A DNA stretch of 64,000 nucleotides from Candidatus Heimdallarchaeota archaeon (GTDB lineage: Archaea > Asgardarchaeota > Heimdallarchaeia > Hodarchaeales > Hodarchaeaceae): contig RDOB01000001.1 in assembly GCA_011364965.1 (NCBI GenBank), positions 1 through 64,000 on the forward strand, read 5' to 3'. Below are positions 39,315-44,715 of this stretch, piece after piece; position 1 is the stretch's first letter; each line of letters starts with the position of its first letter. The position numbers and the translations under genes are program-made. The notes under the pieces were generated by a model, which was not told the origin of the DNA, did not search any database, and saw nothing but the letters and a program-made list of their open reading frames with translations.

Positions 39315-40565
39315 ATGGATTCGGATATTCCTTCTTCAAGATTTGATAGACAGGAGCGCCTATCACTCTGGGATCAAAAATTAATTGAAAAAATAACGGT
39401 TTTAGTCGTTGGTGTTGGAGGTACAGGGAGTGAAGTATGTAAGAATTTATCTTTACTAGGGATTGGTAAATTGATTCTTGTAGATGTTGATTCTATAGAA
39501 TATTCCAATTTAAATCGCCAAATGCTTTTTAGCAAAGAAGATATCGGACAAAATAAAGCTGAAGTAGCTAAAGTAAGGATACTCCATCACTTTAATCCTG
39601 AATTAGAGGTAGAAGTATTTCCTTTTTATGTCCAAGAAATACCTGATAAAACTTTTGAATCGGTGGATGTCATTGCAGGATGCGTAGATAACTATTTAGC
39701 TAGACAATTTCTGAATTCAATAGCTATTGAACATCGAATTCCTTTAATAGATTCAGCAACTGATGGCTATTTAGGCCAAGTACAATCTATTATACCATTT
39801 CAAACTGCTTGCTTAGCATGTGATAATCCTCCTCCACCACAAGAAACTCAAGTTTTAATGGAACCATGTTCAATAGTGGGCGTTCCAAGATCCCGTGAAC
39901 ATTGTGCTTGGAAAGCTCTTTACGAATTTAATACATTATTCAATCGGAAACCAAATGAGACTGAAAAAGATCTGGAAAAATTAACTCAATTGGCCAACGA
40001 ATACACAGAAAGGTATAATTTTGGAAAATTTGAGAGAAAAGAATTATTGCAATTGATTATGTTTCATGTGCCAAGCCTTATCACGGTGAACGCTGTAACC
40101 AGTGGAATTCAAACTCAAGAGATTATAAAAACGATTTTTTCGATTAAACGGAGGGAGCTAAGAAAATCAGAAAGGTTAGCCTTGCAGCAATTAGAAACCT
40201 TAACAAGATTCAAAATTCCAAGTTTGTCCATTTATTCAGCATTAACAGGAACTCTAAATACATTTGATCTTGTTCAGGATCCAGAATGTACTGTATGCGG
40301 AAATATGTCCAATTTAACCCAAAAAATTGAAAAAATAAAGATAAATAAGAAAAATTCCTTGAAAACAATAATAAATGGTTTTTCAGAGAAGTTTAATAAG
40401 GAATTTATAGCTTTTAAAGGAAATTCGGTTCTACAAGAGGATAGATCATTAGAATCGTTATTGAGGGATGGAGATCGCATTACACTTAGTTCTAAAGAGG
40501 ATGAGCAAGAATTTAGAGTACGTATAACTTTTACTCCCCCAAGAAAACAAAGAAAGAAAGAATAG
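39315..40565 (+). CDS. E1-like ubiquitin-activating enzyme (ThiF/UBA family)
   Basis: VLVVGVGGTGSEVCKNLSLLGIGKLILVDVDSIEYSNLNRQMLFSKEDIGQNKAEVA; CLACDN...CTVCGN; C-terminal Ub-fold-like tail. Confidence 0.95.
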   Translation: MDSDIPSSRFDRQERLSLWDQKLIEKITVLVVGVGGTGSEVCKNLSLLGIGKLILVDVDSIEYSNLNRQMLFSKEDIGQNKAEVAKVRILHHFNPELEVEVFPFYVQEIPDKTFESVDVIAGCVDNYLARQFLNSIAIEHRIPLIDSATDGYLGQVQSIIPFQTACLACDNPPPPQETQVLMEPCSIVGVPRSREHCAWKALYEFNTLFNRKPNETEKDLEKLTQLANEYTERYNFGKFERKELLQLIMFHVPSLITVNAVTSGIQTQEIIKTIFSIKRRELRKSERLALQQLETLTRFKIPSLSIYSALTGTLNTFDLVQDPECTVCGNMSNLTQKIEKIKINKKNSLKTIINGFSEKFNKEFIAFKGNSVLQEDRSLESLLRDGDRITLSSKEDEQEFRVRITFTPPRKQRKKE

Positions 40566-40579
40566 GAAAAATCTAAAAG

Positions 40580-40906
40580 TTATCTTTTATAAAATACTTT
40601 GATTCGATTTCTTTTGATCGGTAATATCACAGGGATATCAGGATTCAAATATGGTTCCTTATATCCTCCATCTACTTCCTTCTCGGCCGTCAATTGTTCA
40701 TACAATTGCTTCATAACTTGGTCTCTTGACATGGAAGGTAAAATAGATTTCTTGGGATATCTTGAACCTTTCTGAGCGTAATTCCTCTCAATTTTTACAT
40801 TTCTGCGACCACATTTTGGGCAATACCAAACCCCTGATTTAGGAACTTGACGAGGATTATATCCGCAATTACTACATTTGAGATCTGGATTGGACATTAA
40901 TATCAT
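40580..40906 (-). CDS. Zinc-ribbon protein
   Basis: LKCSNCGYNPRQVPKSGVWYCPKCGRRN. Confidence 0.7.
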   Translation of the reverse strand: MILMSNPDLKCSNCGYNPRQVPKSGVWYCPKCGRRNVKIERNYAQKGSRYPKKSILPSMSRDQVMKQLYEQLTAEKEVDGGYKEPYLNPDIPVILPIKRNRIKVFYKR

Positions 40907-41079: not shown

Positions 41080-42828
41080 ATGCTTAAGCGGAAATTGAAA
41101 TCATGGTTGAAACTGGCTTCTGCTTCAAATGAACCTCTTACACTCCATGATTTCTCTGAAGCTAATATTGAAATTCTTGCAGATTTTTTAAGACATAAGA
41201 TTGGATCTAAGGAACTTAATGGAATTGTTACTCCTGATAATTCGTTTTATATACCAATGAAATATATAGACGCATTAATAACGAGTAGTTTAGAATCTAA
41301 TGGTACTATAGACATTTGTGATTTAATAGATGCTACCAATTTACCAGGAGAAATTTTAGAAAGCGTTATTCGTAGAAAAGTAAGCCAAATAGATGGATTC
41401 TTTGATGTAATAAATAGAAAATTCTTCACTAAAAAAGGCGCAAGACTAGAATTACTCAAATTGATCGGTAGTACTCTTTCTTTGGATTTAAATTATCTAT
41501 TGAATAGCCTTTATTGGACACAAGATTATCTTGAAGCAGTTTTAAATATGCTAACACAAAATGGCGAGTTTATAGGTTATATTGATCCTTTAAAACAGCG
41601 ATTATACAATTTCACGATTCTCAATTTCAGTTTAAATCAAGATTTTGATAGAAATCTCGAATCGATGAGAAAATTCATACAAACAAATTTTGATCTAAAT
41701 TCAGAGGTATCATTAAAAGATTTAGCAGGATTAACACGATTATCTGAAACTGAAATCAGAGATCTATTGAGAAAACATTGCAAAAATATCACTTTTTTGT
41801 TTTCCTCTGATTTCAAAAATATCTATAACGTATTAGAAATCTTTGGGTATGTATTAAGAGACATTCATGTTTATAATGAAATTCCTATTGAATTTTGGTT
41901 ACAAAGATTAGACATTGATAAAAACGATTTTATGACTTTCCTAAGGGTAATAAATCAGAGTTTGGGAGCTGAGCTTTCAGAAAAGGAATTAAAATCGAAC
42001 CCAATTGAAAATTGGTTCAATCAGGGTATAGATATCGAAGAATTAGCCCTGAAGCTACATTTGGAACCTTTACAACTGCTAACGGAGATCAAAAAATTCT
42101 CAGATCAACTAGGGTTGATTTTAATAACAGGGGAATTTAGAGATCCTTTTTTAATTAAAGGTATAGAGGAATTTGAGATTTTTTGCCAAGTTGATACATC
42201 TATTCATCACAATCCTCAATTATATTTTGAATGTCAAAATTGTCGACGAATAATGTGCTCAAATTGCCGTTCTTCAGGAAGCACACATGTCTGTCCGTTC
42301 TGTGGGAATATTTCAGCATTTATTATCGATCTTCCAAGGCATTGCCAAACCTGTGAGTTGAACTACACCCATTCATTTAATTTAGAGAGTACCGAAGAAT
42401 GTTATTTTTGTAAAAAAGGTCCCTTAAAATCTGGATGGATTGAAAAAAAGGAAATTTTGTACCCTGAAACAGAATTGGACCGAAAATTACTTGAATGGTT
42501 AAACACCGTAAGAAATGAAAGAATTCCTCTTCGTGAAATAATTTCGAACCTTGGAGCTCCTGATCGTGTAGTTATTGAACTACTAGAAACCCATATACTC
42601 TCTAGCAAGGTTAGTGGAAAGATTGATATTAAAGATCTAACTCTTAATAGGAAGGGAGAAAAAAAAGGTGTTTTATGTAGTATATGTGAAACTATACAAC
42701 CAGAGGGAAATGAGTATTATTGTAATTTCTGTAAAACCACTATTTGCATAAATTGCTACAATAAGATGAAATCCGTTGGAATGATTTCGTGCACGGAGTG
42801 TGGAAGCGAGTTGGTGAAATTTAACTAA
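41080..42828 (+). CDS. UFL1-like winged-helix-repeat protein with C-terminal zinc/RING-like domains, candidate E3
   Basis: GIVTPDNSFYIPMKYIDALITSSLESNGTIDICDLIDATNLPGEILESVIRRKV resembles UFL1 N-terminal WH repeats; C-terminal CSICETIQPEGNEYYCNFCKTTICINCYNKMKSVGMISCTEC. Confidence 0.65.
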   Translation: MLKRKLKSWLKLASASNEPLTLHDFSEANIEILADFLRHKIGSKELNGIVTPDNSFYIPMKYIDALITSSLESNGTIDICDLIDATNLPGEILESVIRRKVSQIDGFFDVINRKFFTKKGARLELLKLIGSTLSLDLNYLLNSLYWTQDYLEAVLNMLTQNGEFIGYIDPLKQRLYNFTILNFSLNQDFDRNLESMRKFIQTNFDLNSEVSLKDLAGLTRLSETEIRDLLRKHCKNITFLFSSDFKNIYNVLEIFGYVLRDIHVYNEIPIEFWLQRLDIDKNDFMTFLRVINQSLGAELSEKELKSNPIENWFNQGIDIEELALKLHLEPLQLLTEIKKFSDQLGLILITGEFRDPFLIKGIEEFEIFCQVDTSIHHNPQLYFECQNCRRIMCSNCRSSGSTHVCPFCGNISAFIIDLPRHCQTCELNYTHSFNLESTEECYFCKKGPLKSGWIEKKEILYPETELDRKLLEWLNTVRNERIPLREIISNLGAPDRVVIELLETHILSSKVSGKIDIKDLTLNRKGEKKGVLCSICETIQPEGNEYYCNFCKTTICINCYNKMKSVGMISCTECGSELVKFN

Positions 42829-42832
42829 AATA

Positions 42833-43735
42833 TTACTCAGAGGTTTTAGATTTATATTGGGCAAGCTTTTGGGCATATTTATCCGATAATTCCTTATAAC
42901 TTTCTTCAGATAATTTCCCACTTAGAAACATCTCATCAGCTTGCTCCAACATATGTTCGTACTTAGAAATTTTAGCTGAAACGTCATCGAATGATTTTCG
43001 CTCCTCATCAAGTTCTCTTTGAGTTTCTAATACTTGTTTTTCAACCTCATATGCTAGTAGTGTTTGATATTCTTCAGGGACTTTAAAACCTCCAATTTCA
43101 AGACCCACTAATTCTAATCCCCAGCGAGATGTTTCTGGTGCCAGTTCGGATCTGGTCTGTATTGTTAAACTCCTTCTCTCCCTCAAAAGATCGGAAACGG
43201 TATAACGCGACATAATGTGTTTCACAGCTGCAATAATCGTTTGCTTTATCCAATTTCTTAACTCCTCACTTGTATAGTAGTGCTTATGTGAGACAACATT
43301 CATAATAAAGTTCCTTGGATTAACAACTCGTAATCTGGATATTCCATAGCATCCAATCATTATATTATCAATTGTATATACCCCAGGTGAACCCCACTTA
43401 ACTAGAAACTCTCCCTTGGTAATCCAAATGATTTCACCTCCAGGCCGTTTAGCTGTTTTGTCTAATTCATAAATTCCACTCCCAGCAACACCAACTAAGG
43501 CTCCTGATTGCAATAGGACAGCAGCTTCAAGCTCTTTAACGATAAATCCATCAAATTTTCGAAAACTATCGTACTCATCAGATTTTAATCTTGAAATAAG
43601 CGATTCTTGTCCGAATTCAGAGGAGAGAATAGTTTTTCCTTTAAACTTTTTCGTCCCGATATGCACTGTATCTCCAATTCGTTTGAATAAACCCCCAAAT
43701 TTTTCTGTTTCCGCCATTTGAGTTCCACCTACCAA
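42833..43735 (-). CDS. SPFH/band-7 domain protein
   Basis: AAVLLQSGALVGVAGSGIYELDKTAKRPGGEIIWITKGEFLVKWGSPGVYT...LGLELVGLEIGGFKVPEEYQ. Confidence 0.8.
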   Translation of the reverse strand: MVGGTQMAETEKFGGLFKRIGDTVHIGTKKFKGKTILSSEFGQESLISRLKSDEYDSFRKFDGFIVKELEAAVLLQSGALVGVAGSGIYELDKTAKRPGGEIIWITKGEFLVKWGSPGVYTIDNIMIGCYGISRLRVVNPRNFIMNVVSHKHYYTSEELRNWIKQTIIAAVKHIMSRYTVSDLLRERRSLTIQTRSELAPETSRWGLELVGLEIGGFKVPEEYQTLLAYEVEKQVLETQRELDEERKSFDDVSAKISKYEHMLEQADEMFLSGKLSEESYKELSDKYAQKLAQYKSKTSE

Positions 43736-44715
43736 TTATCGTCTCCATATATTCCTGGAAAGTAATACTGATCCCCTGTATCTAATGAGCTCACCTTTCG
43801 TGCGATTTTTTGATTTATCAAACTCTCCAACACTCTTGTTACTCTTTGGTGATCCCATTTTGTTTTGATCATGATTTCTTCAATTGTGACATAACCCTTG
43901 TTTACAGCTAAATTGAAGATCTTACTTGCATCATTAGTCAAAGAAACTGGTGTAAATTCTATTATTTTAACACCAGAACGCTTTGATATATCTTCAATTA
44001 GACCATCATCCTTTAAATTCTTACAAGATTTTTCTAAATCTTTAATTGAGAATTCCACATCTGGAACTTGGCTTTTCAACTTGGTGTATAAATTTGCAAG
44101 GGTAATATACCCACCTGAACTAGCTGGAAGTTTTTTACCCTGTTCGAGTATTAAATCCCCAAGAAATTCCTCGAATTTCCCTTTTCCAAATAATTTGGGC
44201 TTTTTACTTGCATCAAGCGCAGTTACAGTTAAAGAAAGTCCTTCTTTGCGAATTAACTCTTCCTCTAACTGCTTTATCCGCTTCTCATATTTTTTCTGTA
44301 AATCTTTAATGTTTTTTGTTGAAACTGAGGCACCATTGGCCAGTTTTTGCTGAACTTGAATGATTTCATCAAGCTGTTGGATTTGTTCATTAAGTTCCCG
44401 GAGTTCCCCCCGAACATCCAAATTTTCTTCTCCAAAATCAATAGATTCTGATAACTGAATACACTGGTCTGCTATTCTATCACAGATGATTGATGATAGT
44501 AATTGAGCAACACGGATTTCACCACTCATTTTTAAATTAGATTTGGTATTATCTGGATGAATAATATAATCAGGAATGGATTCACTTGCGTAACGGATCT
44601 CATCAAATTTTGATATAATCTTTAAGATTAGATCAGATGCACTCCTAGCATTAGAAGAAATACTGCTATTTAATGTTATTAATGAGTCACTAGCCTTAAG
44701 AAAGAATTCTTTCAT
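43729..44715 (-). CDS. ESCRT-II EAP30/Vps22-like protein
   Basis: C-terminal AVNKGYVTIEEIMIKTKWDHQRVTRVLESLINQKIARKVSSLDTGDQYYFPGIYGDD closely resembles human SNF8 (AEKNGYVTVSEIKASLKWETERARQVLEHLLKEGLAWLDLQAPGEAHYWLPALFTD); N-terminal coiled coil. Confidence 0.88.
   Translation of the reverse strand: MKEFFLKASDSLITLNSSISSNARSASDLILKIISKFDEIRYASESIPDYIIHPDNTKSNLKMSGEIRVAQLLSSIICDRIADQCIQLSESIDFGEENLDVRGELRELNEQIQQLDEIIQVQQKLANGASVSTKNIKDLQKKYEKRIKQLEEELIRKEGLSLTVTALDASKKPKLFGKGKFEEFLGDLILEQGKKLPASSGGYITLANLYTKLKSQVPDVEFSIKDLEKSCKNLKDDGLIEDISKRSGVKIIEFTPVSLTNDASKIFNLAVNKGYVTIEEIMIKTKWDHQRVTRVLESLINQKIARKVSSLDTGDQYYFPGIYGDDNW

Follow-up and report, generated by a model that had tools for sequence, protein, structure and literature searches.

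A UFL1-like winged-helix protein with RING-like zinc modules, encoded in a Hodarchaeales ubiquitin cluster, as a candidate scaffold-type ubiquitin E3

Asgard archaea are the microbes closest to eukaryotes, and the lineage that bears the fusion described here has been proposed as the sister of eukaryotes. Homologues of UFL1 and DDRGK1 have been reported in Asgard archaea, which were put forward as their place of origin (PMC10183829), whereas a search of 228 Asgard genomes found UFM1 in none of them. Human UFL1, the UFM1 E3 that acts with DDRGK1/UFBP1, is built of tandem winged helices, contains neither a RING nor a HECT-like domain, has an N-terminal helix that binds UFC1 and a partial winged helix that DDRGK1 completes, and works with UFM1, UBA5 and UFC1, an E2 without the HPN motif (PMC9627666). 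The 582-aa Hodarchaeales protein shares with UFL1 the tandem winged helices, a specific sequence and fold similarity and the lack of a HECT-like domain, hence a scaffold-type mechanism is plausible for it; it differs in carrying RING-like modules, with the C-terminal zinc modules conserved in 13/13 family members, and in being encoded beside a canonical E1 and an HPN-bearing E2. The C4C4-type RING E3s, such as NOT4 (the MAT1 RING is a related fold), share with its second zinc module the eight-ligand pattern, the CPxC ending, the four-residue gap between ligands four and five and a hydrophobic residue between ligands one and two, whereas the module lacks the linchpin arginine, sits after UFL1-like winged helices and comes about as close to ZZ domains by fold. 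RING-type archaeal ubiquitin cascades (PMC5654768) and Asgard ubiquitin-ESCRT clusters, including that of B3_Heim (PMC9192718), have already been published, and the present locus resembles these Asgard and Caldiarchaeum clusters in bringing together a ubiquitin-like protein, E1, E2, JAB and a RING-like zinc protein, but differs in that its RING-like protein is built as a winged-helix scaffold and in that the same genome also has the general Asgard cluster elsewhere. Neither a UFL1-RING fusion nor a second Hodarchaeal ubiquitin cluster was found in the UFL1/UFM1 and Asgard literature, most subscription journals lying outside the search; while Asgard UFL1-like proteins were already known, what appears new is the fusion to a RING, the ubiquitin cluster around it and the second cascade.

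The window, a stretch of 64,000 nucleotides at the start of contig RDOB01000001.1 of a Candidatus Heimdallarchaeota archaeon (GCA_011364965.1), contains at 41080-42828 on the + strand an intact, ATG-initiated open reading frame of 582 aa, exactly where a preliminary description of the sequence had placed it. Relatives of equal length, 26-51% identical and with the same zinc ligands, were detected in 12 other species, which indicates that the frame is a real gene. The family of 13 used throughout consists of the window protein, 11 proteins from the same genus (Candidatus Hodarchaeota or Heimdallarchaeota in public records, including Ca. Hodarchaeum mangrovi and B3_Heim) and one from a sister family (L078). 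The domain order comprises six winged helices, RING-like module 1, a zinc ribbon, a seventh winged helix and RING-like module 2. The AF2 model, built from the 13-sequence alignment, reached a pLDDT of 77.6 and a pTM of 0.66, with six successive winged helices up to aa 359, the seventh from aa 465 to 524 and, close to the C-terminus (530-581), a small zinc domain; pLDDT was mostly above 80 as far as aa 290, while the zinc region was modelled with low confidence in the full-length chain.

The six tandem winged helices (aa 2-359, 41083..42156, + strand), assigned from the AF2 secondary structure, include a degenerate first member in the single-chain model, which also has a helix at its N-terminus, and UFL1 came first for them in both sequence and fold searches. 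The Pfam family E3_UFM1_ligase (PF09743) matched the window protein at aa 67-168 (41278-41583) with 24.0 bits against a curated cut-off of 23.2 (E 3.7e-5), a partial match covering profile positions 121-225 of 272, and matches at E<=0.1 were obtained for 8/13 family members. A single-sequence search of the PDB was too weak, giving UFL1 at E 0.44, and a profile of the 13 sequences was therefore searched against 177,635 distinct PDB sequences. The top four matches were human UFL1 entries (E 4.4e-8 to 2.1e-6, totals that sum repeated matches of related winged helices, the best independent single-domain E being 0.003), followed by RING proteins; the match lies at roughly aa 20-170 within 41083..42156 and is confined to the N-terminal ~250 residues of UFL1. 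No winged-helix protein other than UFL1 appeared below E 0.1 in this search (DDRGK1 0.13). In the fold search with the predicted model, UFL1 structures occupied ranks 1-5 (E 4.1e-10 to 6.5e-7), followed by SelB (E 9e-4) and then ESCRT-II and COP9 subunits; the TM-scores to UFL1 were low, probably reflecting relative orientations that differ along the array. The nearby winged-helix protein Vps22 served as a negative control and matched only the ESCRT-II subunit SNF8 in the PDB search, indicating that the UFL1 match is not a generic one. As no other winged-helix chain ranked above UFL1 in either the sequence or the fold search, a generic winged helix was ruled out. The N-terminal likeness to UFL1 claimed in the preliminary description is thereby upheld, and the HMMER alignment pairs the very stretch quoted there with the UFL1 stretch set beside it. 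The seventh winged helix (aa 465-524, 42472..42651, + strand) is of the PCI type, with a PCI match of 41.4 bits in the relative L078, and resembles DDRGK1 weakly.

The zinc ligands are kept in 13/13 members across both RING-like modules and the ribbon, with the exception of D372 (12 Asp, 1 Cys) and C551 (12/13). Module 1 (aa 369-408, 42184..42303, + strand) has the ligands C369, D372, C385, C388, C393, C396, C405 and C408 and weak PDB matches to PHD, FYVE and TRIM proteins; it has no room for a RING central helix, and because its second ligand is Asp and its last loop is short, its likeness is rather to a B-box, and E2 binding is less to be expected of it. The zinc ribbon (C422, C425, C441 and C444; 42343..42411, + strand) retains all four cysteines in every member. 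Module 2 (aa 533-574, 42676..42801, + strand), the candidate E2-binding RING of C4C4 type, has the ligands C533, C536, C548, C551, C556, C559, C571 and C574, spaced C-x2-C-x11-C-x2-C-x4-C-x2-C-x11-C-x2-C. Eight-ligand patterns like those of the two modules were not met once in 20,000 shuffles of the 582-aa protein. The RINGs matched by the full 13-member profile were MAT1 (6e-4), then UHRF1, BRE1 and TRIM, whereas the profile of module 2 matched the cellulose-synthase RING (1.4e-3) and NOT4 (3.3e-3); no curated zinc or RING family exceeded its cut-off for the window protein itself, so the likeness is one at profile level. A separate model of module 2 (pLDDT 83) matched the RINGs of PCGF5/RING1B, BRE1 and TRAF3 and the p62 ZZ domain at modest E values (0.035-0.2), ZZ domains matching about as well as RINGs. 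At the positions that we take to face the E2, assigned together with the linchpin position by comparison with Cbl, the family has I/V at aa 535 in 12/13, M/I/L at aa 563 and Pro572 in 11/13, while the linchpin position is Gly in 12/13 and a linchpin Arg is missing. Ligand spacing and fold matches point to module 2 as a RING-type eight-ligand cross-brace that would bind zinc, in keeping with the RING-like C-terminal cysteine pairs that had been noticed from the sequence at the outset.

The surrounding genes form a conserved ubiquitin cluster. On the - strand, an E2 with an HPN motif and candidate catalytic Cys98 (37363..37905; Pfam UQ_con 5e-24; E2K/UBE2D-like in the PDB) adjoins a JAB/JAMM isopeptidase with the motif HSHP...SNTD (36853..37218; Pfam JAB 9e-8). 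The listed JAB frame is short at the N-terminus: within the gene (36853-37362, - strand) no canonical start serves the N-terminal ~50 residues and the frame is open to the E2 stop codon, while the congener proteins are full at ~190 aa, and an assembly indel or an unusual start may account for this. Also in the cluster is a membrane protein of high conservation (36027..36887, - strand), which had no PDB match and resembles CCDC47 weakly at best (E 9e-4, below cut-off). On the + strand lie a conserved protein with an N-terminal zinc ribbon (38140..38940), directly upstream of the ubiquitin-like gene, which had no known Pfam family or PDB match and for which a UEV/RWD identity drew no support from either search; the ubiquitin-like modifier (38965..39288), identified by Pfam, with a Gly-Gly end, no C-terminal extension and 79-86% identity in congeners; and a canonical-type E1 (39315..40565) recognised by Pfam and motifs, with a ThiF domain, GVGGTG and a candidate catalytic Cys in PCSIVGVPR. 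A small zinc-ribbon protein examined by Pfam search and conserved in congeners (40580..40906) lies on the opposite strand between the E1 and the 582-aa gene, so that their co-transcription is not assured. Downstream follow, on the - strand, a conserved, convergent SPFH/Band-7 gene (42833..43735; Pfam Band_7 7e-16) and the ESCRT-II gene Vps22/SNF8 (43729..44715; Pfam EAP30 3e-11; PDB SNF8 2.4e-13). Congeners keep one gene order wherever the contig extends far enough: ThrRS, two Arf-like GTPases, the membrane protein, JAB, E2, the zinc protein, the ubiquitin-like protein, E1, the zinc-ribbon protein, the 582-aa gene, Band-7 and Vps22. In L078 the homologous gene is immediately next to Band-7 and Vps22, all on one strand, and lies on a contig other than that of the E1. 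Judged by its sequence, the E2 is canonical (HPN, UBE2-like) and of a RING-compatible type, and since UFC1 lacks the HPN motif (PMC9627666), the cascade beside the 582-aa gene is classed as ubiquitin type and not as UFM1 type.

A separate ubiquitin cluster was observed in the same genome (L147:6925-11561, corresponding to G000:C1:54925-59561), with two ubiquitin-like proteins, an E1 (57590), an E2, a JAB protein and a membrane protein whose C-terminus carries a RING-like motif. A gene order like that of this separate cluster recurs in other Asgard genomes and represents the general Asgard cluster, and the E1s of the two clusters are only 35% identical. Hodarchaeales thus carry two separate ubiquitin cascades, one of which seems to be linked with the membrane genes for ESCRT-II and Band-7.

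The top UFL1 match, the RING matches, the ligands, the E2-facing residues, the gene order, the canonical E2, the absence of UFM1 and the position of the L078 gene next to Band-7 and Vps22 together tip the balance slightly towards the 582-aa protein being a scaffold-type ubiquitin E3, or the core of one, in a second Hodarchaeales cascade, the one encoded in the window. The general Asgard cluster has a membrane RING-like protein of its own, and the 582-aa protein is the E3 candidate of the window's cluster because no other RING-like gene was seen there. In such a ligase, module 2 would dock E2~ubiquitin, and the winged-helix array would act as an arm binding a substrate or membrane partner, much as UFL1/DDRGK1 does on the 60S ribosome; ubiquitin would pass straight from the E2 to the substrate, and the tagged substrate might then enter the ESCRT machinery or be freed by the JAB protease. 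Several observations weaken the ligase reading, namely the Gly at the linchpin position, the match of ZZ domains to module 2 about as well as RINGs by fold, the low model confidence in the zinc region of the full chain, the opposite-strand gene between the E1 and the 582-aa gene, and the location of the L078 gene off the E1 contig. The zinc module is also common in Hodarchaeales, on soluble 365-420-aa winged-helix/RING proteins, on WD40-membrane proteins, on a Cache/HAMP-like (receptor-like) protein and on a polytopic protein that has winged helices and carries the module twice, and it may therefore be a general binding module. The main rival, which we regard as possible though rather unlikely, is a non-catalytic adaptor: its winged helices and B-box/ZZ/FYVE-like modules would bind other proteins (ubiquitinated cargo, Vps22, Band-7) and so couple ubiquitin tagging to ESCRT, with a different protein as the source of E3 activity. 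An adaptor would suit the cramped module 1 with its weak PHD/FYVE fold matches, the ZZ-like module 2 without a linchpin, the presence of the module on receptors and WD40 membrane proteins, and the L078 gene joined to Vps22/Band-7 and not to E1. The adaptor, however, fits poorly with the cluster offering no other E3 candidate, with the RING-like residues kept at the E2-facing positions, and with a RING-like protein accompanying each of the two ubiquitin clusters in this genome.

That UFL1 is the best PDB match by profile and by fold, together with the reported Asgard origin of UFL1 and DDRGK1 (PMC10183829), would also suit a genuine orthologue of UFL1 that acts in a UFM1-like pathway and acquired its RING later. 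This is improbable, as UFM1 is missing from the 228 genomes, no UFC1 or DDRGK match was obtained in the genus of the window protein, the linked E1 and E2 are of ubiquitin type, and Lokiarchaeal-type proteins match UFL1/DDRGK1 more strongly than the 582-aa family does; membership of the UFM1 pathway itself was ruled out by the absence of UFM1 and the ubiquitin-type E1/E2. A DNA- or RNA-binding regulator made of generic winged helices and zinc fingers, lying near the ubiquitin genes by chance, is highly improbable, for although the fold search places SelB, with its RNA-binding tandem winged helices, directly behind UFL1, the PDB profile matches up to E 10 contain no transcription-factor winged helix and the neighbourhood is conserved throughout the genus.

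The full fusion was detected in 13/228 Asgard genomes, all of them Hodarchaeales. Two other families (G080, G081) have the winged-helix/RING C-terminal half but lack the UFL1-like arm, and the Lokiarchaeal-type proteins have a UFL1-like arm but lack this C-terminus. As the halves occur separately elsewhere, the fusion looks like the joining of two available parts in Hodarchaeales, and such a lineage-specific joining is simpler than the ancestral architecture advanced in the preliminary description, which the distribution and the stronger UFL1/DDRGK1 matches of the Lokiarchaeal type leave unsupported. Of the hybrid ligase put forward there, the UFL1-specific match and the RING-type modules in one chain have stood, the ancestral status has not, and E3 is kept as a candidate assignment. 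The 582-aa and Lokiarchaeal UFL1-like families are related by profile-profile comparison (probability 95%, E 2e-8, 160 columns), and the Lokiarchaeal ~790-aa proteins likewise combine UFL1-type winged helices with a cross-brace zinc pattern in one chain (33/35), but their zinc module is N-terminal and B-box-like, they hold DDRGK1- and UFL1-type helices in the same chain, and no ubiquitin cluster was found near their genes in the loci examined. A further, doubtful proposal is that UFL1-type scaffolds served first in ubiquitin ligation, here with a RING, and were later recruited to UFM1 with the zinc module lost or replaced; if true, the RING-free mechanism of UFL1 would be secondary. With its UFL1-type scaffold and RING in one chain and the genes of a complete ubiquitin cascade beside it, the 582-aa protein offers a testable candidate for such a scaffold role before UFM1.

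Some related proteins were also observed. In the Lokiarchaeal-type ~790-aa proteins (L105:9446-11812 and relatives), the DDRGK1-type and UFL1-type winged helices are contiguous in one chain, and the L105 type aligns with the engineered human DDRGK1-UFL1 chimera 8b9x in a single alignment of 203 positions (E 1.9e-13); human UFL1 and DDRGK1 may derive from one Asgard protein. A 915-aa polytopic membrane protein (L120:3797-6544, genome G042) that combines UFL1-like winged helices with two ribbon-bearing RING-like modules represents a membrane-anchored relative of the 582-aa architecture. In another family, genome G078, which also possesses a ubiquitin cluster (L149) related to that of the window, encodes a 666-aa protein (L122:2935-4935) of winged-helix repeats ending in a RING-like/ribbon module. 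The genome of the window itself encodes a 794-aa protein (L063:334-2718, G000:C11 near 158116) in which HEAT-like repeats at the N-terminus precede winged helices that score weakly on the UFL1 model.
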